Positions 1 through 57,101 of a stretch of DNA of 64,000 bases are shown here, in pieces. Within the stretch, counting starts at the first letter, position 1, and every line of letters starts with the position of its first letter. The notes beneath the pieces are model-generated. The model had not been told where the DNA came from and did no database searches. It was given only the letters and a program-made list of their open reading frames with translations. The DNA lies in NCBI GenBank assembly GCA_020683205.1, contig CP085689.1, positions 2,846,230 to 2,910,229 of the forward strand, given 5' to 3'. The translations under genes were made by a program, and so were the position numbers. This DNA is from Lentisphaerae bacterium WC36 (GTDB lineage: Bacteria > Verrucomicrobiota > Lentisphaeria > Victivallales > SZUA-371).

Positions 1-990
1 CTCCCTCAGGTAATAAAATATTACAAAAAAGCTGCCATTAATGAACATCTTTTTGGCATTATTTCACTTCTCGAATATTATAAACTACTAAACGATGAAG
101 AGAAATTGCAACAGTTCATTAACGAATATGCCAATTCAAAAAGCTACATTGTTAAAGAAAATCTGGCATGGGCTATTTTTCAAAAAGATCTAGATAAAGC
201 TGTTAAAATCTTTGAAAAAACTGTAGAAAAAACAAAAAATTATGACTTACTTGCATATTTATATTTATCGCAAAAGAAATATGGTTTAGCGATAAAATAT
301 TTTAACAAAAAAAGTCATTTTATGCCAAAAGAACTCGCAATTTGCTATGAAAAAACTGGGGATTTAGAGCTGGCATACAAAACTGCAAGTAATATACAAA
401 CTTATTCTGACATAGTATATTTTTTAAATTTAGCCATAAAGCTTAAAAAAATTAAAGACGCTGAAAATAATTTATTAAAAAAAGTAAGTGAAAATAAAAA
501 TCAAATTAACTACCTAGTCGGTCTTTATATTTTTTATAAATCAACAAAAAATACAGAAGCGGAAAAGAAAACTTGGTATAAAATTACCTCACAATTTTCA
601 GAAGATTATGCCCTAAGTCAGCTGGCAAATTTTTACAAGTTCAATAAAGAAGAAGATAAAGCCTTAGAGATTTATAAGAAAATTTCAGTTTCAAATCCAA
701 AATATTATGCTGATGTTGCAGCGCTTTATCAATTGTCCCAAAAAGATTATGATACTGCTTTAGAATATTACCATAAACTTTTAAAGGAATATGAAAACAA
801 ATTGACCAAACATGATGAATATACACGGTTGCTGAACACAATAGCCAATGTTTATTATAAAAATGGAAAATATCAAAAAGCATTGGAGTACGCAAAAAAA
901 GCAAAAAATAATTATTTTCTAAATGCATGGTTCATACAAAAAATAAATATTAAAATTAATCAAAACAACAGGAAAAATAGAAATGATTAA
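1..990 (+). CDS. TPR-repeat protein, 5' end outside window
   Basis: The frame is open from the first base to the TAA at 988-990, so the gene starts upstream of the window; the TTG at 106 is only an internal codon. The visible part is a string of degenerate tetratricopeptide-like helical repeats (patterns such as DTALEYYHKLLKEYENK and YQKALEYAKKA), rich in Lys, Asn, Tyr and Phe. No enzymatic motif is present. It overlaps the next gene by 8 bases (ATGATTAA). Its repeats and C-terminal layout resemble the five paralogs that follow, so it is probably the first visible member of the same membrane-anchored family, but the diagnostic N-terminal anchor is not in view. TPR proteins usually scaffold protein-protein contacts; no partner is evident. 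Confidence 0.8.
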   Translation, partial: LPQVIKYYKKAAINEHLFGIISLLEYYKLLNDEEKLQQFINEYANSKSYIVKENLAWAIFQKDLDKAVKIFEKTVEKTKNYDLLAYLYLSQKKYGLAIKYFNKKSHFMPKELAICYEKTGDLELAYKTASNIQTYSDIVYFLNLAIKLKKIKDAENNLLKKVSENKNQINYLVGLYIFYKSTKNTEAEKKTWYKITSQFSEDYALSQLANFYKFNKEEDKALEIYKKISVSNPKYYADVAALYQLSQKDYDTALEYYHKLLKEYENKLTKHDEYTRLLNTIANVYYKNGKYQKALEYAKKAKNNYFLNAWFIQKINIKINQNNRKNRND

Positions 991-2416
991 AAAATTAGAA
1001 GTTATTGGCATAATTATTTTGGTTGTAATTGGTTTAATTTGGGGCGGATTCGAAATTTGGATTCGCAACTATGCTGATGGAGAAGAACTTTACAACAAAT
1101 ATCAAATAAGCATTCAAGAAAAAAATAATTTCAAAGCGCGGGCATTTTTACGTTTGGCGGCCAAAGCAGGTAATAAAAATGCAATGTGGCGAATTGCAGA
1201 CACTTCTCTTTTTGAAGGCGACAAAACGAATGCAATTTTTTGGTATAAAAAAATATATACTTCTGGCGAACAATTTGCCTTGATAAAATTAGGGAATTGC
1301 TATGTCAAAGTCAACGAAATTGCAAATGCAGAAAAGTATTATAAGTTGGCTCAAAGCAACAAAAGAATACAACGTACGGCTAACTATGAACTATTATTAT
1401 TATATCAACAATTTAACAAACAAACAAAACTAACACAGCTAATTGAAGACATTTTGAAATCAAAAGATTTTAAATTAATAAATAGTTTAGGTTATTTTCT
1501 TACAAAAGATGGAAAACATTCAAAAGCAATAAAAGTTTTTGTACGGGCTTTAAAATTAGAAAAAAATCATATAATATACAACAACTTAGCAAACTGTTAT
1601 ATTCAAACAAAAAACTACTCTGATGCAATAAGTTACTTGCAAAAATCACTAAAGCTACAAGGAAGAAGCTATCAATCAAGTAACATCAAAGCTAAACTTG
1701 CAGATTGTTATGCTAAAATAGGTCAAATAGAGAAATCAATTAACCATTATGAAAAATCACTTTACAATAAGCCTGGTGCCGGCCATGATTCAAATATTTT
1801 AATTCGCTACATTGCTTTAATGGTTAAGTTAAATAAAAAAACTGAGTGTTTAGCTTTTATTGAAAAACTTGAAAAATATGAAAGCATTCCATTGTATGCT
1901 GAAAAAAGTTTCTATTACGATAGCATTAACAACTCTAAACAAGGAGAACTTTACTTCAAACAGGGGCTAATGAACAAAAAGATTAATGGATATCTTAATG
2001 TCTCAAAATTTTATTTAAAAACTCAACAATATGAAAAAGCACTAAAGTGGAGTCACAAATTTCTAGAAAATTATCCTGAATGGGCTTCAAAATTTATTAT
2101 CGAAGCGTACTGCGGTCAAAAAAAATTAATTCAGGCAATAAATTTTGTTGATAAGCAAATTAATGGAGTAAACAAAAATTATTCCAAAGCACTAATTTAC
2201 GATCATTTTAAAGAATATAAAAAAGCTATTGATTTTTATATTAAAGCTTCACAAAATCATCAATCTTTCTATAATCAAATTGGTGATATTTATTTACAAT
2301 TAAAAAACTATAACAAAGCAGTCAAATATTACAGCAATGCTAAAAATTTTGACTACAAAAGACTACGTAAGGCATATTATTTACAATCAAAATCTCAGGA
2401 GAAAATAAATGATTAA
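983..2416 (+). CDS. Membrane-anchored TPR protein, paralog 2
   Basis: A 477-residue protein. Residues 1-30 form a single uncleaved transmembrane anchor preceded by MIKKLE and ending in LIWGGFEIWIR, then ADGEELY. The rest is a series of TPR/Sel1-like helical repeats (for example NAEKYYKLAQ, YSDAISYLQKSLKL, YNKAVKYYSNA). Positive residues before the helix favour an N-in topology, with the repeats in the periplasm (inference). The start overlaps the previous stop by 8 bases and AGGA lies about 12 bases upstream, so the genes are probably translationally coupled. The C-terminal RKAYYLQ segment recurs in the paralog at 3497. Function unknown; scaffold or sensor of a surface complex is possible. 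Confidence 0.85.
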   Translation: MIKKLEVIGIIILVVIGLIWGGFEIWIRNYADGEELYNKYQISIQEKNNFKARAFLRLAAKAGNKNAMWRIADTSLFEGDKTNAIFWYKKIYTSGEQFALIKLGNCYVKVNEIANAEKYYKLAQSNKRIQRTANYELLLLYQQFNKQTKLTQLIEDILKSKDFKLINSLGYFLTKDGKHSKAIKVFVRALKLEKNHIIYNNLANCYIQTKNYSDAISYLQKSLKLQGRSYQSSNIKAKLADCYAKIGQIEKSINHYEKSLYNKPGAGHDSNILIRYIALMVKLNKKTECLAFIEKLEKYESIPLYAEKSFYYDSINNSKQGELYFKQGLMNKKINGYLNVSKFYLKTQQYEKALKWSHKFLENYPEWASKFIIEAYCGQKKLIQAINFVDKQINGVNKNYSKALIYDHFKEYKKAIDFYIKASQNHQSFYNQIGDIYLQLKNYNKAVKYYSNAKNFDYKRLRKAYYLQSKSQEKIND

Positions 2417-3500
2417 GAAGTTAGAAATTATTGGAATCAGTATTTTAATAATAATTGGTTTAATTTGGGGTGGAGGTGAAATTTATCTAAGAAATTTCGC
2501 TGACAAAAATAAACTTGAGGTACTAACACAAAAATATCTAGAGAAAAAACAATTTTTTTATGCTTCAATATTGGCGAGATGTGCTTATAAAGCTGGTAGC
2601 AAAGAAGCTGCTATTATATTAATGTCCTTAAGTTTTGCAAATAGAAACCCACACAGTGCAAAATATTGGTCGGCACAAATTCCTAAGTCCTTGAAATCAG
2701 AAAAAGAAGCCTCAATAACTATTGATATGGTGATTGCGATTCAATCAAAAGAATTAGAAAAAGCATGCAAATTATTTAATAGTTTAAGGACGGATTTTAA
2801 AGATCAAATTCCAGAAGGAATCCAAGAATTAATAAGAGAAAAAATTTATGATTTCACAATTGAGATAAATGATTTTCAAAAATATGCAGACCAAGGCAAT
2901 AAAAATGCCTTCCCTATTTTGGCATGTTTATATATAGGTCACAAAGATAAACAAAATGCTGAAAAATATTTAACAATGGCTTTTGAAAATAATGACGAAT
3001 GGGCAACTTATAAATTGTTATCTATCGCCAAAGAAAATAATGATGAACAACTAACAGTTAAAATACTTAATCGCTTAATTGCTATTGATGATAAATACCA
3101 CAACAGATACGGTGCATATTACTTAGAAAAAAAAGAATTCGTTAAAGCTCTAGAGCATTATAAAAAATTCTACTCTGCAAATCATGTTTATGGAGCAAGA
3201 AATGTTTGTCGAGTGTATATCTTAATGAATAATTTTGATGAAGGGATCAAATATTTTAAAAAACTATACGAAAATGATAAAAATCGTTGTGAAGAAATTG
3301 CGAGATTATATGAAGCTCAAAAAAATTATAATGAAGCGAGAAAATGGTGGAAAATTACCTTAAAAAAACGCCCAGGCTATATTTTTGCTATTAATTCACT
3401 AAATGCCTGCGAAAAAGCTATTAAAAAAATATCTAAATTCAATCTGATAATAAGCGAAAAAATTGAAGAAGAACTTAAGAAAAAAGAGAAGACTAAATGA
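2409..3500 (+). CDS. Membrane-anchored TPR protein, paralog 3
   Basis: 363 residues, the shortest intact member. The N-terminal 40 residues repeat the family anchor (MIKKLEIIGISI then LIWGGGEIYLRNFAD). TPR-like repeats follow, including NAEKYLTMAFENND, FVKALEHYKKFY and YNEARKWWKITL. The C-terminus is a Lys/Glu-rich tail (EELKKKEKTK) unlike its neighbours. It overlaps the upstream gene by 8 bases and the downstream gene by 4 (ATGA), and AGGAG sits upstream of its start. The coupling argues for one transcript through the array. No catalytic motif seen; function unknown. Confidence 0.84.
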   Translation: MIKKLEIIGISILIIIGLIWGGGEIYLRNFADKNKLEVLTQKYLEKKQFFYASILARCAYKAGSKEAAIILMSLSFANRNPHSAKYWSAQIPKSLKSEKEASITIDMVIAIQSKELEKACKLFNSLRTDFKDQIPEGIQELIREKIYDFTIEINDFQKYADQGNKNAFPILACLYIGHKDKQNAEKYLTMAFENNDEWATYKLLSIAKENNDEQLTVKILNRLIAIDDKYHNRYGAYYLEKKEFVKALEHYKKFYSANHVYGARNVCRVYILMNNFDEGIKYFKKLYENDKNRCEEIARLYEAQKNYNEARKWWKITLKKRPGYIFAINSLNACEKAIKKISKFNLIISEKIEEELKKKEKTK

Positions 3501-5011
3501 TTAAGAAGTTAGAAATAATTGGGGTTAGCATTTTAATAGTAATTGGCTTAATTTGGGGTGGAGGTGAAATTTATTTAAGAAATTTTGCAAATAATAAGAA
3601 ATTATTTATTACAGCAAATAAATATAAACTTGCTGGTGATTATTTTAAAGCGAAATTAATTTTTTACCTTTCATATAAAGCAAAAAACAAAAAAGCAGCT
3701 ACTGCTCTGGCAGAAATTTATCAAAAGCATTACCAATTTGCTCAAGCAATAAACTGGTATAAGAAAGCATACCAGCTTTCAGCAAAAGATTCACGATGTT
3801 CTATAGCTGAAAGAATAGCTAAAGCTTACACTGCTCTAAGTCAAAGAGAGAAAGCTATAGAATGGTACAAAAAAACACATTCTGATGGTGAGTTTGTTCT
3901 AAGTAACATTGGCGATCTTTTTATAAAACCTGAAGAATTTTCTGAAGCTGAAAAATGGTATAAAAAAGCATTTAAAAAAGTTTCTTGGCAAATTAGTTTA
4001 CTAGATTTTTATGATATAACAAATCAATCTAATAAGAAGAAAAAATTTGTTGCCCAAGTTTACTCATCAAAAGATATTTATAGAAAATCATCAGTAGCTC
4101 ATCATTTTGAAAACTCCCAAAAAAATTATCAGCAGGCTATAAAATTCTACTCAAATATCGCAATTAAAGATCCTCAATATTATTACTCTATTCTTGAAAT
4201 TGCAGAAAAAGCAGGAAAGTATCAAAAAGGAATTACTGCATACAAAAAAATGACAAAAAAAGATAAAGATTCTTATCTTACAAAAAGAATGTTAGCAAAC
4301 TGCTATTTCAATATGGAAGATTATCAAAGTGCTTATTCTTTATACTTAGATATTTTACAAAAATGTTATGATGATAATAATATTCTCAAAAATTTAACTA
4401 TGTGTTCGCAAAAATTAAACTATATCTCTCAAACAATTGAAGACATAAACAGATTAAAAAATTCTAATTTAAAAAAATACACATTAGGTTACATTTACTA
4501 TAAAATTGGTGACATCGAAAAATCAAATGCAACATTCGATATTAAACCAGGAGAATATTATACTTATTCTTGTAGCTCTACTGCGCATATTTTTATGAAA
4601 AATCAAGATTATGATCAAGCAATAAAATTTTTTAAGTTAGCAGCTTTGAGCTCTAGTGGTTCGGCAAGTTTGTATAACAATTTTATAGGTAATTGTTACC
4701 TCAATTTGAATCAATATCAAAATGCAATAATATGGTACGAAAAAATTATACCTTTTAATTCAGAAAACGCAAATGAACTTTTAGGTAATTGTTACCAAAA
4801 AATGGGGCATCTAGACGAAGCAATCAAATGTTATCAAAAAAACTCTAATTCACGCAGTTTGAAACGAGCTATTTCACTACTTTTAAAAAAGAAACAGTAT
4901 GATATAGCGTTGAAATATTTAGCAGAATATCGTAGTAAAGGATTTTATTTTCCGCATCAATTCCGTAAAGCATATTATTTAAAACAGCAAGAAAAGGAGA
5001 ATGACAAATGA
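3497..5011 (+). CDS. Membrane-anchored TPR protein, paralog 4
   Basis: 504 residues: family transmembrane anchor at 1-30 (LIWGGGEIYLRNFA), then many TPR-like units (FAQAINWYKKAYQ, REKAIEWYKKTH, FSEAEKWYKKAF, YQNAIIWYEKI, LDEAIKCYQKN). Its first 40 residues and the DNA beneath them are almost identical to those of paralog 3, while the repeat regions differ. This fits duplication followed by divergence or recombination of the repeats. The start overlaps the previous stop by 4 bases; GAGAAG lies upstream. The C-terminus (FRKAYYLKQQEKEN) resembles that of paralog 2. Function unknown. Confidence 0.85.
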   Translation: MIKKLEIIGVSILIVIGLIWGGGEIYLRNFANNKKLFITANKYKLAGDYFKAKLIFYLSYKAKNKKAATALAEIYQKHYQFAQAINWYKKAYQLSAKDSRCSIAERIAKAYTALSQREKAIEWYKKTHSDGEFVLSNIGDLFIKPEEFSEAEKWYKKAFKKVSWQISLLDFYDITNQSNKKKKFVAQVYSSKDIYRKSSVAHHFENSQKNYQQAIKFYSNIAIKDPQYYYSILEIAEKAGKYQKGITAYKKMTKKDKDSYLTKRMLANCYFNMEDYQSAYSLYLDILQKCYDDNNILKNLTMCSQKLNYISQTIEDINRLKNSNLKKYTLGYIYYKIGDIEKSNATFDIKPGEYYTYSCSSTAHIFMKNQDYDQAIKFFKLAALSSSGSASLYNNFIGNCYLNLNQYQNAIIWYEKIIPFNSENANELLGNCYQKMGHLDEAIKCYQKNSNSRSLKRAISLLLKKKQYDIALKYLAEYRSKGFYFPHQFRKAYYLKQQEKENDK

Positions 5012-6369
5012 CTAGGAAGTTAGAGATTATAGGTGTAATTATTTTTATAATTATTATTTTAATTTGGGGTGGAGGTGAAATTTATTTAAGAAAATTCGCT
5101 GATGGAGAAGAAATCTGCAAAAAGGCTAATGATTTCAACAACAAAGGAAATAAAAGCACTGCCTGGTTTCTATTTAATATTGCAACTCGTACATCTTACA
5201 AAAACGCTTATATAGAATTAGGAGCATTTTATTATAAGAATGGTGATATTGATAACGCAAGAGCAATTTTCACACAAGCTGGCAATAAATTTGATAAATA
5301 TTGTAGCATATATGCAGGCATGCTTTATTATAAAATTGAAGATATTCCAAAAGTTACCAAATATTGGAAAAACTGCTCTAAAAAAGGTAACTTAAATACC
5401 TTAATATGCTTGCATCAACTTTATCTTGAACAAGGGGACTATAATGCCGCAAAAAAACTTGAAGATAAATATTTAAAGCTTAAAGATGGTCAAACAATGC
5501 GCTCTTTTGCTCTTGGTTATTATTTTCACAAAGATTATCAAAAAGCAAGTGAACTATCCTAGCAAGCTATTGAATTTAAAGAAAACAAAGCAATTTCAAC
5601 TTATTTACGTAGTTTACAAAAATTAAAGAAATACTCTGAAATTATTCAATTTTTAGATTATGCAAAAAACAAAAAAATCCCAATAGATAAATATAGTGAA
5701 TATTTTGCTCAGGCATATTTAGAACTTAAAGATTATCAAAAAGCGGAAAAATACTACCATAATGTTATAAAAGATTATATCTATCCAACCAACATAGCAA
5801 ATATTATAAAACTTTATCAAGAGCAGGATCAATTAGATAAGGCTATAGAATTATTCAAAAATCGTCAAAAGGTACTAAAGTTCAAAGATAATTATAACAA
5901 TTTAGCACTCAGTTTCATTTTTGAATTACAAGGTAAAAAAAAGCTTGCCAGTGAATATTTCAAAAAGGAAACTCAATCGATTAAAGAAATGTATTTTGCT
6001 CGCATTGCTTTTAAGTTAAAGGATTATGAAAAAGCTGAAAAACTTTATCAACGTGCTATAAAAACTGTAAATTGTGGGAGTGAAATTGCAGAATTATATT
6101 TAGAACAAAAAAAATATGATAAAGTCATTGAATATTACGAAAAAGAGGTTGCTAAAAATAAATTTAATTACTTGAATTGGCCTTTATTTAATATTTATAA
6201 ACAACAAAATAAGTATCAAGATATTATAAGAATCTGTGACCAAGCAATCAATTATTATGAGAAAAATTTATATAAAAATATCAATTATACACTTGCTTTA
6301 AGATATTTTTACCTTACAAGACAACAATTTTTGAAAAAAATCGAATCTCAAAAGGAGAAAAGTAAATGA
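5008..6369 (+). pseudogene. Membrane-anchored TPR protein, paralog 5, interrupted by in-frame TAG
   Basis: The gene starts with the family anchor (MTRKLEIIGV then LIWGGGEIYLRKFADGEE) and reads as TPR-like sequence to a TAG at 5560-5562, about residue 185. Beyond that codon the same frame stays open without another stop to 6369, and the downstream sequence is good TPR sequence (YQKAEKYYHNVI, LDKAIELFKNR, YEKAEKLYQRAI). One AAG-to-TAG or CAG-to-TAG change would explain it. The frame was therefore recently a 453-codon gene. Both ends keep 4-base ATGA overlaps with neighbours. It could be a true nonsense mutation, a sequencing error or readthrough. TAG closes other intact genes here, so stop reassignment is unlikely. 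Two shorter products are possible, but no good ribosome binding site is seen before the ATG at 5989. Confidence 0.75.
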
Positions 6370-7832
6370 CAAAAAGATTGGAAGCTATTGGAGTTGTTAT
6401 TTTAATTATAATTGGCTTAATTTGGGGCGGGTTCGAGATTTGGCTTCGCTATTATGCTGATGGTGAAAAACTATATAGAAAATCCCAGACATATAGCCAA
6501 CCTTATGAAAACTTTAAAGCTAAATTATATTTAAAATTGGCCGCTAGAAAAAATCATAAAACAGCAATTTTTTCTCTAGTAGACCTCTATAAATCTCAAA
6601 AGAATTATGAAAATGTTATTTATTATAGCAAAAAAGGTCTGAAAAACACGACCAGAAAGGGATACTATATTTCAACCATTGCAGAAACTTATAGTATTTT
6701 AAATAATGTTGAAGAAGCAAAAAAGTGGTACGAAAAAAGCATTAAACTTGATAAAGCAAAAGCTTTTCGATCAATAGGCGATTTATATGTCAAGAAAAAA
6801 GATTTACCAATAGCAATTCACTGGTATAAAAAAGCTACTGAAATAGATTTCAGTTTTAATTACTATTCATTATTTTACTTATTAGAATTAACAAATAACA
6901 AAGATGAAATCGAAAAAATTACAATAAATTACCTTAAGTCTAATGACCACAATGTCATCAATTCTTTAGGAGACTATTATTCTAATAGAAATCCAGATTT
7001 TGCAATCGAAATTTATAAAAAAATTGCCAAAAATAATTTAAATACGGCAAGAAGCATGGCAGAAACTTATTTTAAACAAAAAAAATATGACTTAGCTCAA
7101 AGTTACTTTGACAAAGCCTTAAAAATTGCCGATGATAATTATACTTATCGTTGTTATGCAAATTTTCTCTTAGAAATAGGTAAAAAAGATAAAGCCTTTG
7201 AAAACATTATAAAATCATTTCCAACAGACCTTATGATGCTAGATATACATCAATTACGCAACTTTGTAGATATTGCAGTCGAAACTAGTAATACTTTTCA
7301 GGCGGAAAAAAAACTTAAAGATCTATTAAAGCAATTAAAAGAAAATGATATTGATTTTAATAATACGGAAATCCTATTTACTTTATACTATTTATATGAT
7401 AAACAAAATAAAACTGAAAAAATGACACAAGTTTTCCAAAAATTTTGCAACGACTATGGGGCTCAAGTAGCTTATTCAACAATTGGACTCTATTATTGCC
7501 AAGTTACAGGAGACTTTGACAAAGCTTTAAAAATGTACTTAAAGGCACCGCATAATAATAATTTTGACAAAGACATTGCCTCTATTTATTTTGTAAAAAA
7601 ACAATATGATTTATCATTAAAACACTACTTGAAAGTTCTTAAAGAAATGAAAAAAAAGAAATCATATACTTTTTTACATTTTGAATACGAGTCAATCTTA
7701 AGAACTATTGCTGAAATTTATTTCGAAAAAGGAGAATATAAACAAGCTTTAAAATATGCACTTGAGGCGAAAGCCAATTATGGAGAAACTACAAATTTAT
7801 TAAGAAAAATTTATCTAAAACTAAATCCTTAA
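6366..7832 (+). CDS. Membrane-anchored TPR protein, paralog 6 (last of array)
   Basis: 488 residues. The N-terminal anchor is closest to that of paralog 2 (LIWGGFEIWLRYYADGEKLY). Repeats include VEEAKKWYEKSIKLD, LPIAIHWYKKATEID, YDLAQSYFDKALKI and YKQALKYALEAK. The start overlaps the previous stop by 4 bases, and AAGGAG lies about 8 bases upstream. The array ends here; no clear rho-independent terminator follows immediately. Like the others it has no enzymatic motif. A surface or periplasmic scaffold is the most that can be inferred. Confidence 0.85.
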   Translation: MTKRLEAIGVVILIIIGLIWGGFEIWLRYYADGEKLYRKSQTYSQPYENFKAKLYLKLAARKNHKTAIFSLVDLYKSQKNYENVIYYSKKGLKNTTRKGYYISTIAETYSILNNVEEAKKWYEKSIKLDKAKAFRSIGDLYVKKKDLPIAIHWYKKATEIDFSFNYYSLFYLLELTNNKDEIEKITINYLKSNDHNVINSLGDYYSNRNPDFAIEIYKKIAKNNLNTARSMAETYFKQKKYDLAQSYFDKALKIADDNYTYRCYANFLLEIGKKDKAFENIIKSFPTDLMMLDIHQLRNFVDIAVETSNTFQAEKKLKDLLKQLKENDIDFNNTEILFTLYYLYDKQNKTEKMTQVFQKFCNDYGAQVAYSTIGLYYCQVTGDFDKALKMYLKAPHNNNFDKDIASIYFVKKQYDLSLKHYLKVLKEMKKKKSYTFLHFEYESILRTIAEIYFEKGEYKQALKYALEAKANYGETTNLLRKIYLKLNP

Positions 7833-8314: not shown

Positions 8315-8665
8315 TCAAATTATCTCATCTATTTTTAAATTAAAAATTAATGTAAATAAATAAAGCAATAAAAGCAGTATCAAACTTATAATTAAAGGAA
8401 AACTCGTAATAATAATTTGTTCTCTTTTTTCCACTCCTTGCAAGTGAGTTTTATTTTTGCATAAAATTATAATATTTATTGGAGAAATTATTAAAATAAA
8501 TAGAAAAAACAGATAAATTCCAAATGGTTCAGGGTATATAAAAAACAAAGGAATTGTACTTCCGAAACAAAAAACTTGAATGAAATTATTCCAAGTCGGT
8601 CTTGTCATAGAATACACAAAAAAACATATTAGTAGCATCATAATTAAATAAAATATATTAATCAT
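8315..8665 (-). CDS. Small multi-pass membrane protein
   Basis: 116 residues from the ATG at 8665, chosen because GAAGGA precedes it at good spacing; an in-frame TTG at 8740 would add 25 polar residues overlapping the upstream gene. It shows about four hydrophobic segments (near residues 1-18, 28-44, 48-68 and 86-107) with a short charged loop (CKNKTHLQGVEKREQ) between the last two. Family not recognised. It follows the leucine-rich-repeat gene on the same strand, probably in the same transcript. Confidence 0.6.
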   Translation of the reverse strand: MINIFYLIMMLLICFFVYSMTRPTWNNFIQVFCFGSTIPLFFIYPEPFGIYLFFLFILIISPINIIILCKNKTHLQGVEKREQIIITSFPLIISLILLLLLYLFTLIFNLKIDEII

Positions 8666-8729
8666 CTTTTTATTCCTTCGATATTTTTCTGATGTATAAA
8701 TGTCCAAATTCCTAAAATTAACATAACTA

Positions 8730-9500
8730 TTATAAAACAACCCATATAAAATATGGATTTTTTGATACTGGGGGCAATTCTACTACTTTGCATTTTTTAG
8801 GTAATTGACTTCGTCTAAGCCATCTTGATGCAGAAATATCCTCAATGGTTAAAGTTTCAAGAGGTAGTTCCTTTAGAACAAAAAAATCTTTTAATTTTTC
8901 CATATTACAAATTCTTAAATTTTTTAGATTTGGACATGAACTCCTTAGAAAATCTAAGGAGTTAACTTGCAAACCGCCTAAATACAATAACTCCAACTTT
9001 GGCATTAGGTTAAAATTCACTTCATTATCATAGGCATGCATAATAAATAAAAACTCTAATTCTGGAAATTTCAATTTATTAAATGATTGCAATAAATTTT
9101 TATTTTTTAGCTGATTATATGAAGCTTTTAATATAAGAATCTTTAGTTGAGAAGTATCTATTTGTGCTAAAATATCAAAATCGACTTCATATGCACTTAA
9201 AGATTCTAATTTAACCTTTTTATGTAAATATACTGATTTTAGATTATCTAAATATAAGATTTCTAAAGTTTTTAATGAAGGAGAACCACTCAAGTCAAGA
9301 GTTTTAAGATTTTGTTGTTCAATTGAAAATGATTCAAGCGCAGGAAATTTGTTACTATTAAGATATTTTTCATCACATAAATCATCGCTTGTAAAATTTA
9401 AACTCTTCAAGTTCACTTCTTGAAAGTTATTTAATTTTTTAGCAGCAATTAATATTGAAGAAATATTTAATAACAAAATAAAAATTAATATTTTTCTCAT
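8730..9500 (-). CDS. Secreted leucine-rich-repeat protein
   Basis: 256 residues. The N-terminus is a signal peptide (MRKILIFILLLNISSILIA). Leucine-rich repeats then run through most of the protein (LESFSIEQQNLKTLDLSG, LKTLEILYLDNLKSVYL, LELLYLGGLQVNSLDFL, LETLTIEDI), the horseshoe-type units used for protein binding. The C-terminal FIWVVL is hydrophobic but too short to span a membrane. A periplasmic or surface-binding role is inferred. The start follows an A-rich stretch containing GGGGA about 10 bases upstream. Confidence 0.72.
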   Translation of the reverse strand: MRKILIFILLLNISSILIAAKKLNNFQEVNLKSLNFTSDDLCDEKYLNSNKFPALESFSIEQQNLKTLDLSGSPSLKTLEILYLDNLKSVYLHKKVKLESLSAYEVDFDILAQIDTSQLKILILKASYNQLKNKNLLQSFNKLKFPELEFLFIMHAYDNEVNFNLMPKLELLYLGGLQVNSLDFLRSSCPNLKNLRICNMEKLKDFFVLKELPLETLTIEDISASRWLRRSQLPKKCKVVELPPVSKNPYFIWVVL

Positions 9501-29388: not shown

Positions 29389-31764
29389 ATGTGTTACAAA
29401 TTATTTTTATTTCGAATTTTATCAACAGCAATTTTAATACAAGCTTTTACATCTAAGGCTAATAGTTCTACCAAAGAGACTATTAGAAATAATCAAAGTG
29501 TTATTATTAACAAAGAAGTTCTTGATGAATATCAGAAGTTTCTTGATGCTGAAAATTTATACAATAATAATGAATTTATTAAGGCATACAAAATTTTTGA
29601 AAAATTACATAAAAAAGGGCGCAGTGAAGCAACTGTATATTTAGGAAAATATTATTTTTTTGGTTATCAACCTATCAAAAAAGACTATGTCAAGGCTTTA
29701 GATTTTTTTATGCAAGCGGTTGCAAAAAACAATGGTGAAGCATGTTATTTGGCTGGTTACTTACATGAACAAGACTATTTTAAGGGTGTAAAACAAAATC
29801 ATGCCAAAGCTCTTAATCTTTATAATAAAGGAGTGTCTCTGAATAATACTGATTGTATGTATCGTGCGGCAATTTATTACGCAAATGGGGCCGATGCTAT
29901 CCCTGTTGATAACAAAAAAGCGTTTGAATTATTTAATAAAGGAGCACAAGGCGAACATTCATACTGTTTATATGAGCTTGGTAATATTTATGAAAATGGC
30001 TACCTAGGAACTACTAAAGATTTAGAAAAAGCTTATAACTTTTATTCTCAAGCTGCACGTTATAACGATAGCGATGCCATGTATAAACTTGGACAATTTT
30101 ACTTGAAAGGAAAAGTCGTTGCAAAAAATGAAGCAAAGGCATTTGAATACTTTCTCAAAGGAGCTCAACAAGAAAATATTGATTGTTTAATCGAAGTCGC
30201 CTATTCATTCCGTAATGGACGAGGAATCGAAAAAGATGATGCAATGGCAGTAAAATGGTACAAGTACGGCATTAAGCTTAATGATCCAAATAGCGCTTAT
30301 TTTCTAGCCCATGCTTATAAATATGGCAGTTTAAGCTTAAAAGTTAACTACCAAAAAGCACATGAATATTTCACGATTGGCGCAGAATTAGGCGATAATG
30401 AATGTCAATTTGAATTGGCAATTATTTATGAAGACGGCCTAGGGGTAGAAAAAGATTTTACTAAGGCATTAAAGCTATACGAACAGTCCGCCAACAATGG
30501 TAACGGTCAAGCAAAGTGCCTATTAGGAATTTACTATTATCAAGGTATAAACATCAAAAAAGATTATCAAAAAGCGTTAAAATACTTTCAGGATTGTGGA
30601 GATAATGATGTTGCATTGTACTACTTATCGTATATGTACTTTAATGGTAATGCGGTTAAAGTAGACCACAAAAAAGGTCTTGAGTTACTAAAAAAATCTG
30701 CTAACTTTGATTATGTTGAAGCTCTATACTTACTAGGAACTATTTATTATAATGGCGAAGTTGGTGTAAAAATTGATAATAAGAAAGCATTTGAATATTT
30801 TCAAAAAGCGGCAAAACATGATCATATTGAATCTCTTCTGCGCCTTTCAGCGTGTTATGGCGATGGAACTGGCACAGCTAAGGATTATAAAAAAGCTGAA
30901 AAATATGCTAAAAAAGTATTAAAATTAACTGGCAATAAATCGGCAAATGCCTTTTTCTTATTAGGTTCAATCTACAATGATAATAATGATAAAAAAAGAC
31001 TTTTAAAAGCGATGCAATATTTTCAAAAAGCGGCTGAATTAGGTCATATTGAATCAACTAATAATATTGGATACGCATATTTAAATGGACGGGGTGGGTT
31101 TGAATTAAATTATGAAAAAGCTCGCCAATGTTTTGAGAAAATTATTAAACATATGCAACATAAATATGCGCTACGTAATTTGGCAATTATTTACGAAGAA
31201 GGTTTGGGAGTAAAAATTGATTCAAAGAAAGCACTAGATTATTATGTAGCATCTGCAAAAGCAGGTTTACTCATAAGCTATATTGATGCAACTAAATTAT
31301 CGATTAAAACCAAGCAGGGAGACAAAGCATTTCTTTATGCGCAAAAAGCGTTACCTTCAGAAACAGCGCAAGCCTACAATAATCTTGCAGTATGTTATTT
31401 TAATGGCTTAGGGACAGAAAAAGATTATCAGAAAGCATTTGAATATTCAACAAAAGCAAGTGAATTAAAATACTATAAAGCAAACTTACTGCTAGCAATG
31501 TACTATATTGATGATAAACATAATATCTCACGCGATATTAAGAAAGCAGTTAAACTATACCAACAGGCGTTAAAAAGTGGACATTATAGAGCTGCAGCAG
31601 TATTAGGAAAAATCTATGATGTCGATGATGAGATTAAAGATGTTGACTTAGCAATCAAATACTATAAAATTGCAGCCAACAAAGCGCATCATAAAAAATC
31701 TAAAGACCGTTTAAAAGTGCTTGAGAATCCATTAGTAAAAGGATTTAGGTCACTATTTGATTAA
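29389..31764 (+). CDS. Large Sel1-repeat protein, secreted
   Basis: 791 residues. A signal-peptide-like N-terminus (FLFRILSTAILIQAFTSKANS) is followed by about 18 Sel1-type units of some 36 residues, with the pattern A..LG.Y...G....D..KA..Y...A. Examples are CLYELGNIYENGYLGTTKD, CQFELAIIYEDGLGVEKD and EALYLLGTIYYNGEVGVKID. Sel1 proteins are solenoid adaptors in bacterial signalling and envelope contacts. The repeats here are canonical, unlike the looser TPR units at 1-7832, so this is a separate family. Probably periplasmic; partner unknown. Confidence 0.9.
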   Translation: MCYKLFLFRILSTAILIQAFTSKANSSTKETIRNNQSVIINKEVLDEYQKFLDAENLYNNNEFIKAYKIFEKLHKKGRSEATVYLGKYYFFGYQPIKKDYVKALDFFMQAVAKNNGEACYLAGYLHEQDYFKGVKQNHAKALNLYNKGVSLNNTDCMYRAAIYYANGADAIPVDNKKAFELFNKGAQGEHSYCLYELGNIYENGYLGTTKDLEKAYNFYSQAARYNDSDAMYKLGQFYLKGKVVAKNEAKAFEYFLKGAQQENIDCLIEVAYSFRNGRGIEKDDAMAVKWYKYGIKLNDPNSAYFLAHAYKYGSLSLKVNYQKAHEYFTIGAELGDNECQFELAIIYEDGLGVEKDFTKALKLYEQSANNGNGQAKCLLGIYYYQGINIKKDYQKALKYFQDCGDNDVALYYLSYMYFNGNAVKVDHKKGLELLKKSANFDYVEALYLLGTIYYNGEVGVKIDNKKAFEYFQKAAKHDHIESLLRLSACYGDGTGTAKDYKKAEKYAKKVLKLTGNKSANAFFLLGSIYNDNNDKKRLLKAMQYFQKAAELGHIESTNNIGYAYLNGRGGFELNYEKARQCFEKIIKHMQHKYALRNLAIIYEEGLGVKIDSKKALDYYVASAKAGLLISYIDATKLSIKTKQGDKAFLYAQKALPSETAQAYNNLAVCYFNGLGTEKDYQKAFEYSTKASELKYYKANLLLAMYYIDDKHNISRDIKKAVKLYQQALKSGHYRAAAVLGKIYDVDDEIKDVDLAIKYYKIAANKAHHKKSKDRLKVLENPLVKGFRSLFD

Positions 31765-41678: not shown

Positions 41679-44600
41679 CTATAGTGTTTCTCTAATCTGT
41701 CTCTGGAACCAAGAAATAACCGAATCTGGTCCAGTATTCACGGCAGGGTGAGTATCAAATAAATCTTTTTCCTCAGCCATCTCTACCATAATACTTTCTA
41801 ATGCACCTTTAACTTCACTTTCACCATAATTGGTATAGACTCCAGAAGCGAAATCTCCAACTAAATCTGGCGTGCTTTGATATGCATCAAAACCAACTGC
41901 ATAGGTACCATCCATTGCTCCATAGAATTCTTCAGAATTATTCTCAAAGATAATACCATTATCATTAGCAAGTAAAGAAGCTTGAGATAAACCACTTTCA
42001 GGAGTGCCTCCTAAACTATCAGCTAATCCTTCATTTTTCAGCGCGGCTAAGAATGCTTTAGTATTTGCTTGGTAAGCCATATCATTATAACGAACACGGT
42101 ATGTTGTTGAATTAACAAGCTCTTGATTCATCCAAAACTGCTGATTTGCATTCAAATAAACATCACGCAAATCAGTACCTGTAAATATACCTTCACCTGC
42201 AGTTGGAGTAAAATCAACATCTGCTAAAGTAAATGTAAACGTCATATCAGTAGTTATGCTATTTGTCAATGACACACTTCTATTGAAGTTTGGAGTACCC
42301 ATCATCAGAACTGTTTTATCAACAGTCAGTTCATCATTTGGATCAACAAGTGTACCATCTTCATTATATTCTGGCGTTATCCAATTTTTACCATCAGTAT
42401 TATAAGCCATATATGCACTGTCACTACTGTCATAATCAGCACTTACATTGCCAGAGTGATAATATAAATCAATTTGCTCAGCTGAATAATTTTCATCTTC
42501 TGTAACAAGCTTAAACTGTAATCCAACTGTTGAATCCATATCTTTAATCTTGCGATTTGAAGTTTTCACTGCATCAACTTGAATACCCAATTTATCAATA
42601 TTTGTTGTTGAATTATTGGTTACATCTAATCTTACAGATCTAGAATCATCTCCTACATAGAAAATCGTATCATCATCTGCTCCTGACGTTGATAAATAAA
42701 GAGTTCCACCATCAGCTAGATTAAAGTAGCGTTGAGAGCTAGCATTAAATACTTGATCTTCTCCATTAACATACAACGATGCACCTTTATCTATTGAGAA
42801 CATCTTACTATCAGCACCAAAGTCAAGAGAAGCAACTTCAAAATCTCCATCGACTAACTCAACATTACCATTTAATGTTAGTAATTGAATTGAGCCTTGC
42901 ATATCGCCAATCTGAGTAATTTTTGAAGTTCCAGTTGAAGTACCAATTGTGAAATTAGTCGAAACGTCAATTGTTCCGCCATTGACAAAATCGCCTTCAA
43001 TTGTAATATTTTCTGCATCAATTCTTGCTTTATTCACTAAATTACCAGTCAATTCAATGTCAGTTACGTCAATAATTTCTGCTCCAGTTTGAGACGTTGC
43101 TTCAACAAACTCAACACTGTTACCAGTAATTTTAGCTGCCTCAACTTGAATCGAACCATTCTTAGAGGTAATTTTCGCATTATCAACTACGACTTTATCT
43201 CCAGGTTTGATTGAAATATTGCCATTTACTGTAGTATTACCTGTTAAGAAAATATTTGTTGCATTTAACATTGTTAACATTGCTAAGTTTGAAGCATCAT
43301 TCATTACAATACTATTTAAAGCCTCTATGGTTAAAATTGAATTATTACCAATGATATTTCCATTAAACTCTACCTTATTATTAGCAGATTCAATTGTATA
43401 ATTACCGTTAGCGGCAAAAACCACATCAGCATTAAAAACAATACCATTATTAACACTCAAGTCACCATCAATATAAACATCACTATTGAATGCTAAAGTT
43501 GCATGAGTCAAATTCAGCATGTTGTCTATCGTAATATTATTTCCACCAATACCTAATTCACCTTTTACGTCTTCAGCTCCATTAACATCAGCGAAATCAA
43601 CATTTCCTTTGATACTATTAAAGTTAACACTACTTTCTTCATAAGAACCATCTCCGGCTCTTTCCTCAACTGAGAACATTCCTAAATTAAATAAATTACT
43701 AGCAGGAGTAACACTTGGTGTTGCAGACTCTATTAATTTTAAACTACTATCTATATCAAATGATAACGTCCCTCCCTGAGCAACATTTACGCTGTTTTCT
43801 GCAAACATAATATTCTTTGCATCAAAAGTTAAAGAAGTACTGCCTCCAATAACATTCAATTCATTATCAAAGTCAATATAATTTGCATCAATTCTATTAA
43901 CTCCAGAAAGAGCAGTCATGTTACCAGCACCATCAACTTCAACATTATATTTAGCTTTCAATGATGCATCTTCAAGGTTAATAGTAGCATCATTATAAAT
44001 TTCAAAATTATTTGCAGTAATAGATGAACTTACAATCTCAGAATTTTCTGTAGTATAAGAAACGAAATCTTTTTTAACAGTAACTTCTGTATCATTAATC
44101 GAGAAATTATCTACTTTTAATTGTTTATTGAATGTTACTTTACCAGTATCTTCAGATAAAGTATATCCATATGTAGTAACTCCATCTGGTTGACCAATAG
44201 TTAATCGGTTAAGAACCTCTACATTATTATAGAAAGTTTTATTTCCAATTCCAGAAACCTGTAAATTATAGTACTTATCGATACCATATGTGTTAATTTT
44301 CTTACCATAACGGGTGCTATCATAGTCATAAACAACTGTAGTATCACTTAAGTCATTAACCGTTACTGAAAAATCGCCTTTAATTGTGTCTGTATGGAAA
44401 ACAATTGTACTTCCTGCATCCAAAGCAATCATAGAATCAATTGTTGCAAAACGTTTACTGCTATCAGTTGCATATCTATCATCAGAGAAAATAATTGTAC
44501 CCTTATTATTAATTCTATCAGTAATAGAGTACTCTCCTCCCGGTGCATAAGGATTATTTACAACTGGAATCGTGTATAATGCTCCTCCAGCGAATTCCAA

Positions 44601-47600
44601 AATACCATCCGCATTTACAGATAGAATCGATTCGACTGTCGCATCTTTAACAATTAAATGTCCTATTGCAGCTGTCGCATCATCATCAATTACCAATGAG
44701 TTCTTCTCATTTACCTCTAATGTTGCTCCATCTTTTAATGTAGCTTGACCATCAATAACAAAAGTAATATCCCAATTATTTAGTAATTTACTTGAATCTA
44801 CTTGATCATCGATGCTTGTACCTTCTTCATACCAATAACCGTTCTCAAAAATGTCATTAGCTCCTGTATATTCACCAGCATTTCCATCCTTATCTGAGCC
44901 AACATAAATATAAGTTTTAGACTCTTTTTCATATGCGCCTGCCGTAGTCCAATTTGATCTATAATCACGGAAATCAGCTATTACCTGACCAGTATCATCT
45001 ACTCCAATATTACCGTATTTATCAACAATTGACATATTATCAGCAGCATTTTCTGCAGCAGAACCACTTAAAACATAAACTTTGAATGATCCACCATCAG
45101 TTTTTTCCGCATATTTAGATAACAATGCATCAGATCTTACAATATTATTTCTCTGACCATCAACACATTCTAAATTAGAACCTGTTGCTCCATAAGCATT
45201 ATTTGATGAGAAAATGCCCTTTTCTGAATATGATGAAATACTATTTTGAGAAACAATACTATTGTTAACATACAATGTACCTGTTTCTAAATAAATACCT
45301 CCACCTTTATATTGAATCTTATCACCATATGAATTAATTCCTGCAACATTATTTGCAATAGTAACATAATTCAAGTGACCGTATTGATATGTAACATCAT
45401 CATCAGTTGAAGGCGTACCTTGATCTAAAGTCTCTGTGTTTGGCAATGACCCAACACCACTGATATATAATCCACCACCATATTCACCTGCCTCATTATT
45501 AGCAATTGTTGTGGTGTTTATTAATAAAGTATCAGGCCCAGTAATATAAAGACCTCCACCATCTTTTCCTGCTTCATTATAAGCAAACCCACTATTTTCA
45601 ATATATACATCAGTTTGCGAATCTAAGAACATGGCTCCACCAGACCCACCTGCAGTAGCCTTTGCTATATCGCTATTACGCATATCAAAATTACCAGTTG
45701 CAGCATAAATAGCACCACCATCATAAAGTGCAGAAACATTCTCTATTTTTACATTATCTAAAACAACATTTCCTGTTTCATTATATATTGCTCCTCCATG
45801 ACCAGAAGCATGAGATTCTGTAATGCTTACATTAGCTAAATCTAAATGTTCTCTACTAAAGATTGCTCCACCATGAACAGGAGTCTCAACTTTCTTCCCA
45901 TCAATGATTTCAAAATATTCAGCAACACTATTAACCATATCAATATTTTTAATATAGGCTGTTGATGTTTTATCGACATTTTTATTATCAACTATAAAAA
46001 TTCGAGATTTCTCTTCAGCATCTAACATTAATCGTTTTCCAGCTAGATGACTATTAACCGTTGGGTTCTCATCACATTTAATTTCACCATCAATGGTAAC
46101 ATCTTTTGTAACTTCTAAAGCACCAATCCCAGTGAATGTTATTAAACTATCATTTGTTTTACTATTATTAAAATAAATACATTCATCTGGCTTTTTACTG
46201 CTACGATCAGTAACCCATAATTCTTCAACTTTCGGATTACTTGAAGTACCAGTTATAACAGTATGAGAAGCATCAAAACTTACAATTGAAATATCTTCTG
46301 GTTGTACATATGTAACTTTTTCAAGATCAGCAACAACCTGATGGAAATCGTCATGTAGTGACTTAGCATAAGTAAATTCTGAAGTAACTTGACCTTCTGC
46401 ATTAGCATCAAAATCAACTTTATTATATTGAAATAAAAGAGGTTTTTCGGTGTCACTTTCTGCATAGAATCTATAACCATCTTCACGTTCAAAGACATCA
46501 TTATAAACTCCATAAAGAGCATATACCTCTCCATCATATGTATACGAAATATTACCCGAAGGATTGAATGTAACTTCATGAAAACCTGTTTCATTTGAGT
46601 GAACAATTGTTAAGTTAGTACCATTACCCTCTTCTTGATTCAGCACATTGAGGTTTTCATCCCACTCCTTATCCCAAAACTGGATTGTTGTTAGATTTTT
46701 TGCACTTTCATAGAAATCATATAGATAAGCTTCACCACCAGCACTCACCATATCTCTATTTTTGTCATCTTCTTTCATATTTAAAGTTAAAAGATTTAAT
46801 GTAACTCCCTCATCTGGATCACCTGGATCATCAACAAGTATAGACTTGCTAGGAGCTTGACCATCTGAAAAAGTTCTAAAAGCACATCTTGTTACATCAC
46901 CAGCATCATCAATTTCAGCATATAGGTAATACGTAATCCCTCCAATTTCAGCGTAGAATTGTCCTTGTTCATCAATAAGAACATCATGGTCTTCTCCGCC
47001 ATAATTAATACTAAAATTCATATCGCCATCATCTAAAATTTCATAGAAAAAGTCAACACCTTCAGACGTTTGGTCATTTATGATATTGCCAGTATTATCA
47101 AGATTATAAACAACAATTTCTCCATTTTTAGTAACAAGTCGTTGAGCTTCTCCTATGTCTCCGTCACAATCCTCTGCCTGAACGAATCCACCAATAGTGA
47201 AGCTATCACCAACTGTATTTGATTCAACATATTCTCCACAAAGGTAATATGCAATCTCATTAAGTGGATCTGAATCATCAACAAAATAAATATAACCATC
47301 ATCTGTATCAAGGTTTAATCTATAATTACCAGTTTCCGTTTCAATAAAAATTTGAGAAGGAGCTGCGCCGTCGACCCAATATAATGCTTCCTCTATAGTC
47401 ATATGCTGCTGAATCCAGTTACCATCTGAGTCAAAATACCCAAGAGCAGTTCCAACATCTAAATATTTACTATCGTTATATACAAAACCTGTATTGTTAT
47501 TAAATACACCAGAACTATTACTTGTAACAGTAACAAGCATTAATGATTCATATGAACCAATATTCCATGCACTACTATCGTAATCACGATAAAGACCTCT

Positions 47601-50600
47601 TTGATCTATACTTTGATTTGCTGAAATAGATCTAATTTGCAATGGCATGCTATGTATTGAAAGATCCGCGTCTTGATTAAAAAGAGTTACTGCACCAAGA
47701 GCATCTTCGCGCGAACCAAGACTAAATGCAATACTACCATCCATCAAGCGATAAGATAATGTTTTACCACCATTGTAATCCATTTCTTCAGAAAGGTTAA
47801 GATTTTTGATCAAACCTCCAGAGACTCCATCAACAACATGAAAGTCCGTTTTATTTTCCCAATAAATTGGATCCTGAACATCAAAATCAATTGTAGTATC
47901 AATATTAGCGGTGTTAAAGTCATATCCCTTACCTCTATCTGATGTTGCGGCATTATAATAATATGCTCCAACAAGGTTGGTATTTTTATTACCATTATTT
48001 TCATCTACGACGTCAAATATTGCAACATCCTCAACTGTTGTACCATTGATAAAAAAGTCTATGGCAATAGTATCAATAAAATGAGCATGCGCAACCGCAA
48101 CATTATTTGCAACAATACAATTGGACATTCTAAACACTAAATTAGGATCAGATGCTACGTATATTCCAGCTTGTTCAGGTATAATTTCATCTTGATTGTT
48201 TGAGACCTTAGATTCAACTCTGTTATTCACAATAGTATTATTAACAAGTAGTACGTTATTTTTGTCATATTCGTCATTGTCGGCTAAGTGAATAGCTGAT
48301 CCCCAACCCATTGAACAAGGTTCTGTTCCGCAAGTCAAATCAATAAAGTTGCCAGAGATAGTGCTATTGACAACCGCTATGGACTCTCCTTTTGAATAAA
48401 TACCCGCACCATAACCGCTATCACTAACAGATTTCTTCGAAGTTATTTCAATGCTATTATCCAATACTGCCGAATTTTCAAGAATTAAAGTTCCAGAGTT
48501 ATAAATACCAGCCCCCATACCACTATAAATACTCGAATGATGTTTTGGTTTCCCTGTGACATAAAGTTCGTTGCTGGTAATTGTCGAATCGTAAATAGCC
48601 ATTTCTCCAGAGTTATATATTCCACCACCTAATGCATGATTTCTATATAGTCCTTCCTCAACGTCATTAAATATTATATCAGAATCCTTTACTACAACGT
48701 TGTTCAACACCATTGTACCCTCATTCATGATACCTGCACCATGAGTTTGGCTACTCATATTTTTTACCTCAAGATATCCATCAATATCAATATTGTTTAA
48801 TATTAATGTATTCCCTCCACCATAATTTATTATATTACCATCGTTATCTTTTGATTTAGAATCACCTTCGTTTACAAATACTCTTCCAGAATCATTAACG
48901 ACATTAATTCTATTTTCATTATCCTGGCTCATATAAGTAAAATCTTGAGCCATTTTATCACTATAAATTAATGCAGTTGGATCACCATTATGATCTTTAG
49001 ATAAGAACATTGCCCCTTCATCAAAGGCAATAGCAGAGTTAAATGCTGTACCAATCATTACAGATTTTTCATCGTTATACCTTTTGTCGCTTGCATAAGA
49101 GTTAGCAGCCCAACCAGTATCTATTTGAGCAGCCAATGTTATTGTATTTTCTTCACCATCTGTAGTACTGAAAACATTTTTATCAAAATGAACATAGCGG
49201 TTATGATCATATAAATTTATAGTTGCTCCAGTTTGAATATTTCCATTAGCATCTTTAAATTTAACTCCATTTAACGCCACACTTTGTGAAGCTTCACGAT
49301 CAAAATGATCAATCCAATACTCAGCTTCACGTAAAGTCATACCACTACTACCGTCTCCAATTAAAGCTGCTGCATTACTGTCTTTATACAACATACTGCT
49401 TTGTTGGCTATGACTATAATCATCAAATCCTTTATATACACTTTTAGCCTTGTCATAGTAAAGCATATTATAATTGTTTGTATCATAATTATAATGATCC
49501 ATGACAAACATGTCATCACCTTTACTAGTTACACTAGTATAGAAAATGGCCTCAAACGATCCAATACTTGATCCTGAATTTTGTACTAATTTTCCATTGG
49601 AATCAAAGTGGTATCCATGTCTATTTGCCCCACGTTGGTCAGTAGACGAACTAGAACTACCAGCTCTACGATAAGAATTTCCAACATAATATCCAAATAA
49701 TAGACTTTGTTCATACATCACGGCATGTGTTTCAGTTAAATGATCCCCTTGAAATCTTAGAGTATCATCTAAGAAAGAAAATGTAGATAAAAATTTTGCA
49801 TTGTCTTCATCAACACCAAGTAAATTCTTTTTACTATCCAAAACTCCTGATATTGATGTCATTGTCGATGAAGGATCTTCTGTCAATAAAGATTTCCCTT
49901 CACTTGTTCCAACAGTTATCTCTTGTAAATTATTTGTAGATAGATAATTGTCTAAATTATTTGTATTATAGTAATGAGAAATCATTGATGAACTAATATT
50001 CAAACTAGTACTATCTATATTTTCTATATTAAACTGCACAACATTATCATTTTTGCCTACAAAAGCACTGTTGCTCACTGTTACTTTCTTTGTATCACTA
50101 CCTAAAAGTTCAATTCCTGAGTTGTAGAATGTCGAATCTTTTACAGTCATTGTACCTGAGCCATAAACAATATCTCCACGAAGAGATGTTTCATTTCCGC
50201 TTGAGAAAGTTGATGATAAAATATTTAATTTAACACCAGTTATTTGTGTTCCATTTGCCAAAGTAGATGCGTCATGATCTGGGTCTTCAATAACGATTGA
50301 ATCAGTGAATCCAATAATACTTGAATTAGAAATTGAAAACGTATTGCTTGTTCCGCTATAAAAAGATGCGACCACTCCATCTTGTAGGTGATCCGTAAAA
50401 TGAACTACATCTATTTTAGACTGCTCAAAATGGCCTTTCAATCCATAGTTTATGCCTGTTTCTAATCCATCTGCGCCATACTCAACAACAATAAAACTAT
50501 CTGGCTCACAAACACCTATCTCACCAGCACCAAAATCAAAGATAATATCACCGGCTGAATATTTCGGGTCAGCTGCAGGATCATCAGTCGTTGCATATAC

Positions 50601-53675: not shown

Positions 53676-53777
53676 CTTCTTCTCCTGACTTAACGACTTT
53701 AAGGGTTTCGTAAGATCCCACACTTACGATAACCCTTCAAACGATAATTCACTTCGCTTGTTACTACTTATCTCATA

Positions 53778-53809
53778 AAATATTTAATGTGGTACTTCAC
53801 TAAATATTT
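53778..53809 (-). repeat. Inverted repeat between the tolC-like and giant genes
   Basis: AAATATTTA (53778-53786) and TAAATATTT (53801-53809) are perfect 9-bp arms, and GTG/CAC inside them can extend the stem past a 2-base bulge. No T-run follows on the minus strand, so it may be an intercistronic processing or attenuation structure. AT-rich arms make chance more likely than for GC-rich ones. Confidence 0.4.
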
Positions 53810-53832
53810 CACCTGTTTATTACTTACTTTAT

Positions 53833-55449: not shown

Positions 55450-55517
55450 TATTAACGTTCTCCACATTACTAGTATGTATTTTTTAAATATATCAAAGCT
55501 TATCAAATATAAATTAC

Positions 55518-55850: not shown

Positions 55851-56206
55851 AGTTGTTACCTCATTATTTGATTTTTACTACTTTTTAAAAATACATACAA
55901 TTATAATACTGTATTATTTAAACATTTCCTTAAGTCTTACCTAAAGTATATTTAAACTAACATAATAGTCTAATTATTTCAAGATATTTTTTACAATATT
56001 TGACTAATTTTTTCAATAATAATACTACAAAACATTAAAAAAGCTTATTTTTCATAGTATACAAAAACAGTATACTATATTTTCATCAATTATTCCTCTA
56101 ATAAATTTTAAGGTTTTTTTTACTTTTTTTACTATTATTATTTTTTTTCAAAACTATATTATTTTAGTACAAGTTTTAAAATATAGAAAAAATGGGGAAT
56201 TTAACC
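55851..56206. other. Divergent intergenic region of the export locus
   Basis: It separates the 84-residue/tolC/giant unit from the adaptor/M50 unit and must hold both promoters. The clear element is the 9-bp dyad at 56054-56078. The right half is pyrimidine-rich with TATATT-like boxes; I cannot assign start sites. Confidence 0.6.
56054..56078. promoter_or_regulatory. Operator-like perfect dyad in the divergent promoter region
   Basis: ATAGTATAC and GTATACTAT are perfect 9-bp inverted arms separated by 7 bases, centred about 140 bases before the adaptor start and 216 bases before the 84-residue gene start. The position suits a repressor or activator shared by both units. No regulator gene lies alongside. 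Confidence 0.5.
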
Positions 56207-57085: not shown

Positions 57086-57101
57086 CATTTAGGAGTTCAC
57101 A

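Follow-up and report, generated by a model that had tools for sequence, protein, structure and literature searches.

A tandem array of TPR paralogs with similar membrane anchors and diverged solenoids in Lentisphaerae bacterium WC36

What might a row of adjacent genes do whose products keep one membrane anchor while the repeat domains behind it have drifted far apart? The question is raised by a 64,000-nucleotide stretch of the Lentisphaerae bacterium WC36 genome (the window; G000:C1:2846230-2910229 of a one-contig, 3.66-Mb genome), which opens inside such a row. Our preferred answer, to which we give a probability of about 0.4, is that the seven genes, T1-T7, specify lineage-specific inner-membrane TPR adaptors that probably face the periplasm and would serve different envelope partners.

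Organization of the array

The ORF lists and the sequence delineate seven tandem plus-strand genes that form a paralogous TPR array (Table 1). The original prediction of tandem paralogous TPR genes on this strand holds, except for its count of six: T1 lies wholly upstream of the window and T2 starts 438 bases before it. Extension in the upstream direction, which had been proposed as a way to find the start of the array and its promoter, led to T1 at G000:C1:2844470 and to a promoter-like pair, TTGATC-17-GATAAT, in front of it. Between this site and T1, about 20 bases upstream of the gene (G000:C1:2844431-2844450), sits a perfect 20-base palindrome, TAATTTGTACGTACAAATTA, a possible operator of the array; a role as a shared operator was rejected because the 18-base core has no second copy in the genome. 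A search against Rfam returned a tRNA only.

Table 1. Coordinates of the array genes, their anchor segments and the other family members (window positions unless a contig or locus prefix is given)
Feature	Position	Strand	Description
T1	G000:C1:2844470-2845792	+	440 aa; wholly upstream of window
T2	1..990 (3′ part)	+	475 aa anchored TPR protein; start G000:C1:2845792
T3	983..2416	+	477 aa anchored TPR protein; 8-base overlap with T2
T3 anchor segment	983..1087	+	codons 1-35; MIKK - hydrophobic helix - LIWGGFEIWIRNYAD
T4	2409..3500	+	363 aa; 8-base overlap with T3
T4 anchor segment	2409..2513	+	clusters with T5 and T6 anchors, not S8 anchor
T5	3497..5011	+	504 aa; 4-base overlap with T4
T5 anchor segment	3497..3601	+	
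T6	5008..6369	+	453 codons, interrupted; 4-base overlap with T5
T6 anchor segment	5008..5112	+	
T6 in-frame TAG	5560..5562	+	codon 185; then 268 open codons
T7	6366..7832	+	488 aa; final gene of array; 4-base overlap with T6
T7 anchor segment	6366..6470	+	
S8	L010 9756-10817		singleton; found by anchor profile
U1-U3	L011 5515-10589		second array, 480-597 aa; directly after rmlBACD (dTDP-rhamnose genes)

Neighboring genes overlap at all six junctions, by 1, 8, 8, 4, 4 and 4 bases from T1 to T7; the original description of 4 or 8 bases at every junction holds within the window but not at T1/T2. Elsewhere in the genome, sampled regions show overlap in 7 of 59 co-directional neighbor pairs. The overlap frequency of the array exceeds chance, although junctions that arose as copies in a duplication cannot be counted separately. 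Given these overlaps, coupled translation of T1-T7 is possible, and with a Shine-Dalgarno-like purine-rich stretch at every gene start it would be possible but unneeded. The array is probably transcribed as one polycistronic mRNA. In the second array, U1-U3, neighboring genes are separated by 19 and 25 bases, so overlap does not hold for the family as a whole.

The genes had been taken for an intact set; T6, however, is broken by an in-frame TAG, which leaves six of the seven frames intact. Beyond this stop the frame stays open at a chance, given the local base composition, of 4e-12, so the stop would be of recent origin, an error of sequencing or bypassed by readthrough, and T6, too, would have been retained until recently. 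Translation stopped there would end about 800 bases before T7, a point to set against coupling at that junction, and the stop suggests that one or more members of the family are dispensable. Recoding of TAG was considered: the same triplet is the ordinary terminator of pfkB, an ABC permease gene, rmlC, S8 and U2, which makes general recoding unlikely.

Anchor, solenoid and membrane side

Five anchors are encoded within the window, reading LIWGGFEI in T3 and T7 and LIWGGGEI in T4-T6, while T2 and T1 carry the outliers LSWSGFEI and LIWGSSEV; the near-invariance claimed for LIWGG(F/G)EI thus applies to T3-T7 and not to the first two genes. When the genome was searched with an anchor profile, eleven members were found at three loci (T1-T7, S8 and U1-U3), and E6, E24, R28 and A31 are invariant in all eleven. 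The spacing G17-x-x-x-G21 is conserved in T3-T5, T7 and S8, and G17 is missing from T6 and U1-U3.

Membership in the TPR superfamily is clear from Pfam TPR_2, against which T5, T3, T7 and T4 score 85.3, 84.6, 73.5 and 36.4 bits, respectively, at a gathering cut-off of 27. An AlphaFold run on T3, with input from four window paralogs, gave a model with a mean pLDDT of 87.8 and a pTM of 0.71, in which a helix spanning residues 2-30 is followed by 26 solenoid helices, so that an unbroken 27-helix solenoid runs from the anchor on; confidence drops to 63-69 in the anchor itself. Foldseek and HMMER returned only generic TPR protein-binding superhelices as neighbors, with low TM-scores to PDB entries.

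The N-terminus has a net charge of +1 to +3 in all eleven members, and the residues past the membrane helix are less positive in most of them; in T4, T5 and S8 these residues are also positive (+1 to +2), which leaves the topology uncertain. Elsewhere in the genome, two tandem TPR paralogs of 711 and 490 aa that lack the anchor (L064 5885-9485, G000:C1:951884-955484) overlap by 8 bases and begin with export-signal-like N-termini, and this pair makes an extracytoplasmic set of TPR proteins plausible for the array as well. On the strength of the positive N-termini and the exported pair, we predict that the array solenoids probably face the periplasm (C-out). The solenoids contain 3-10 cysteines, sometimes an odd number. 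Such cysteines are odd for an oxidizing periplasm, which an anaerobe need not have.

The anchor could also be read as an assembly surface. One hetero-oligomeric complex, with anchors packed in the membrane and solenoids as fixed subunits co-translated from a single mRNA, would be in keeping with the overlapping junctions all along the array, with the glycine spacing and with the invariant E24 and R28 at the helix end. We consider such a complex unlikely, because G17 is absent from T6 and U1-U3, T6 is interrupted, and a required machine would be expected in relatives, whereas none of the searched genomes has it (see below). The analysis gave nothing in favor of the further idea that the scaffolds are tied to one membrane position.

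Evolution of anchors and solenoids

Among T1-T7 the anchors (residues 1-35) are 49-86% identical and the remaining residues 23-32%; identities between solenoids are about 22-34%. T4 and the distant singleton S8 are paralogous along their full length (38% over 324 aa), and the solenoid of T7 is closest to that of T2 (32.5% over 492 aa). In the solenoids the synonymous sites are saturated, with codon agreement no higher than chance predicts (z near 0), whereas the synonymous sites of the anchors are unsaturated. Anchor codons agree in 20 of 23 cases for T2/T3 (11.4 expected), 18 of 23 for T2/T7 (10.6 expected) and 21 of 28 for T4/T5 (13.3 expected), and T4/T6 also agree well above the expectation from codon usage; the excess is strongest at codons 8-25. 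When synonymous codons were shuffled within columns, pair-specific sharing in the anchors had a p of 0.026.

The trees are in conflict as well. The solenoid tree joins T4 with S8 (100/100) and rejects T4+T5+T6 (p-AU 2e-11), while the anchor tree joins T4+T5+T6 (93/93) and rejects T4+S8 (p-AU 0.033). From this conflict we infer an exchange of anchor segments: it suggests that array neighbors traded these segments after the T4-S8 split while their solenoids diverged. The evidence for exchange, which comes from 105 columns at a p of about 0.03, is moderate because the anchor is just 105 bases long. Together, the alignment, the trees and the AlphaFold model support the original prediction that TPR paralogs are fixed to the membrane by a conserved anchor and differ in their solenoids.

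Exchange of this kind would be central to a modular display, in which a fixed anchor carries fast-diverging TPR recognition domains and junction repeats of about 120 bases homogenize the anchors by recombination; we think it rather improbable. In the same reading, new binding specificities would arise in one membrane setting, and copies could be gained or lost through recombination between junctions.

The divergence of the solenoids, which are also AT-rich, could instead reflect a largely non-adaptive expansion, in which TPR genes duplicated in tandem, the anchor was kept for insertion, the solenoids drifted and decay is starting in T6. The TAG in that gene and the occurrence in a single genome among those searched are compatible with such a history, and the exported TPR pair described above implies that expansions of this sort are usual in the genome. 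Yet six of the seven frames are intact despite duplications old enough for synonymous saturation, T6 kept its long open frame past the stop, and the solenoid model is confident; weakly constrained expansion is therefore an explanation that we hold to be unlikely.

Distribution and genomic context

Relatives of the anchor were found neither in 40 related genomes nor in 197 other genomes of the same class, nor in a collection of 84,980 species (searched by pattern and tblastn), nor among the viral contigs of IMG/VR. A search of 59 further genomes of the order with full-length T7 gave no match at 1e-8. One weak anchor match (5e-4, in G010) was discarded as an unrelated exported protein. Among the genomes searched, of which the nearest compared belongs to the same family, these proteins are apparently restricted to WC36, and literature searches found no account of such an array. 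They thus apparently constitute a new lineage-restricted TPR family, of an already familiar type.

In the same-family genome G002 the syntenic block reads icd, lplA, rnc, adh, a gene for a small cysteine-rich protein, pfkB and sppA, and the array is absent from it. The order in WC36 is icd, a Kdo/WaaP-type kinase gene, rnc, a zinc-ribbon gene and the array, followed by three minus-strand genes, a pseudopilin gene, pfkB (12351) and sppA (13384). Comparison of the two orders places the array in a variable gap within a conserved block. The Kdo/WaaP-type kinase gene, three genes upstream of T1, is likewise missing from the block in G002. A tie between the array and the zinc-ribbon gene that immediately precedes T1 was considered and dropped, as relatives of that gene in Victivallales and in Clostridiales MAGs have other contexts. 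Just past the array come two overlapping minus-strand genes (8315-9500); the product of one is a small membrane protein, that of the other is exported and has leucine-rich-like repeats, and neither matched NCBIfam or PADLOC.

The U1-U3 array and the preceding rmlBACD genes together occupy L011 1846-10589 (G000:C1:3381845-3390588). S8 is preceded at 43 bases by a kinase-like gene (L010 8624-9712) with the motif HPDLHFGNLL..DPYG, which had no sequence match in Pfam, NCBIfam or PDB.

Tandem paralogs with divergent binding parts also recall interbacterial immunity. Exported solenoids might neutralize different toxins from rival bacteria, in the manner of the orphan immunity gene arrays known in Bacteroides, as PMC12469244 indicates, and the WC36 genome has a type VI sheath gene (G000:C1:256997, 3e-106) with hcp-, tssK- and tssM-like neighbors. 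However, no toxin gene was recognized in the ORF lists around the three loci, the sheath gene has no family member within about 17 kb on either side, and PADLOC gave one weak, meaningless match. Moreover, unlike horizontally traded immunity genes, the family showed no spread in the 197 class genomes, the 84,980 species or IMG/VR. An immunity or defense repertoire accordingly seems to us quite improbable. The acquired defense clusters of Bacteroides share with WC36 the tandem genes, the divergent binding parts and the presence of a type VI system in the genome; the array differs in having no recognized effector nearby, no signs of transfer and no proximity to type VI genes.

Proposed function and comparison with known systems

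The neighborhoods of the family lean toward envelope polysaccharide, with rmlBACD beside U1-U3, the Kdo-type kinase near T1 and the kinase-like gene before S8, a link that amounts to three loci, one of them (S8) with a neighbor lacking any family match. Since TPR solenoids bind proteins, these neighbors lead us to prefer a set of envelope adaptors over a fixed complex, a weakly constrained expansion or an immunity repertoire. Each product would be an uncleaved signal-anchor protein: its short, positively charged N-terminus would stay inside the cell, a single helix would span the membrane, and a TPR superhelix of about 330-470 residues would most likely project into the periplasm. The anchor may have been kept alike, with help from segment exchange within the array, because every copy needs to arrive at one location or at one membrane partner, while the diverged solenoids would each grip a different envelope protein. 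In this way the array could retain a number of envelope factors, perhaps for surface polysaccharide, at the inner membrane.

Among the closest known systems is LapB (YciM) of Escherichia coli, an inner-membrane TPR scaffold in lipopolysaccharide synthesis that, like the proposed adaptors, is an inner-membrane TPR protein and itself scaffolds envelope-polysaccharide enzymes (PMC8745692). Against the NCBIfam equivalog models for LapB, the array proteins score 27-33 bits at cut-offs of 363-474. LapB is a single-copy, cytoplasm-facing protein with a C-terminal rubredoxin-like zinc domain. By Pfam, this domain is absent from the array proteins, whose C-terminal tails are short and rich in Lys, Glu and Asn. 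MamA, PrsT and PilW, the best NCBIfam matches, likewise use a TPR superhelix as a protein-binding platform. The array proteins fall far below the curated cut-offs (at most 64 bits against 200 for MamA and 72 against 312 for PrsT), and the common anchor is not part of those models. Bacterial TPR and Sel1 expansions resemble the array in having many diverged repeat-protein paralogs per genome, for example at L064 5885-9485 and at window positions 29389-31764, but here one anchor is kept over seven linked genes with solenoids at background similarity.

Membrane-anchored TPR proteins are common scaffolds, and the arrangement is uncommon, yet not revolutionary. The feature of some interest is the anchor kept alike over diverging solenoids: if maintained by exchange, it would offer a clean natural example of a fixed chassis that bears a repertoire of bacterial binding domains. 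Should strains differ in copy number and solenoids, the evolution of an envelope repertoire would become directly testable; should they not, this would be an ordinary lineage-specific TPR expansion.

Other loci in the genome

The type VI secretion locus (L062 16138-18968 and L063 1083-15910, about G000:C1:256100-275800) comprises tssB, tssC, hcp, tssL-, tssF-, tssK- and tssM-like genes and a gene for a PAAR-like protein; tssC was assigned by HMM and the other genes by eye. Within the window, positions 41679-55506 contain the gene for a 4014-aa protein that has LEDRILFDAAAA close to the N-terminus and repeats of the kind seen in surface proteins. A TolC-like gene (53833-55506) precedes it, with none after it on the same strand, and HlyD-like genes lie at 56192-58520; the 4014-aa protein resembles a giant surface protein of the kind exported by type I secretion.
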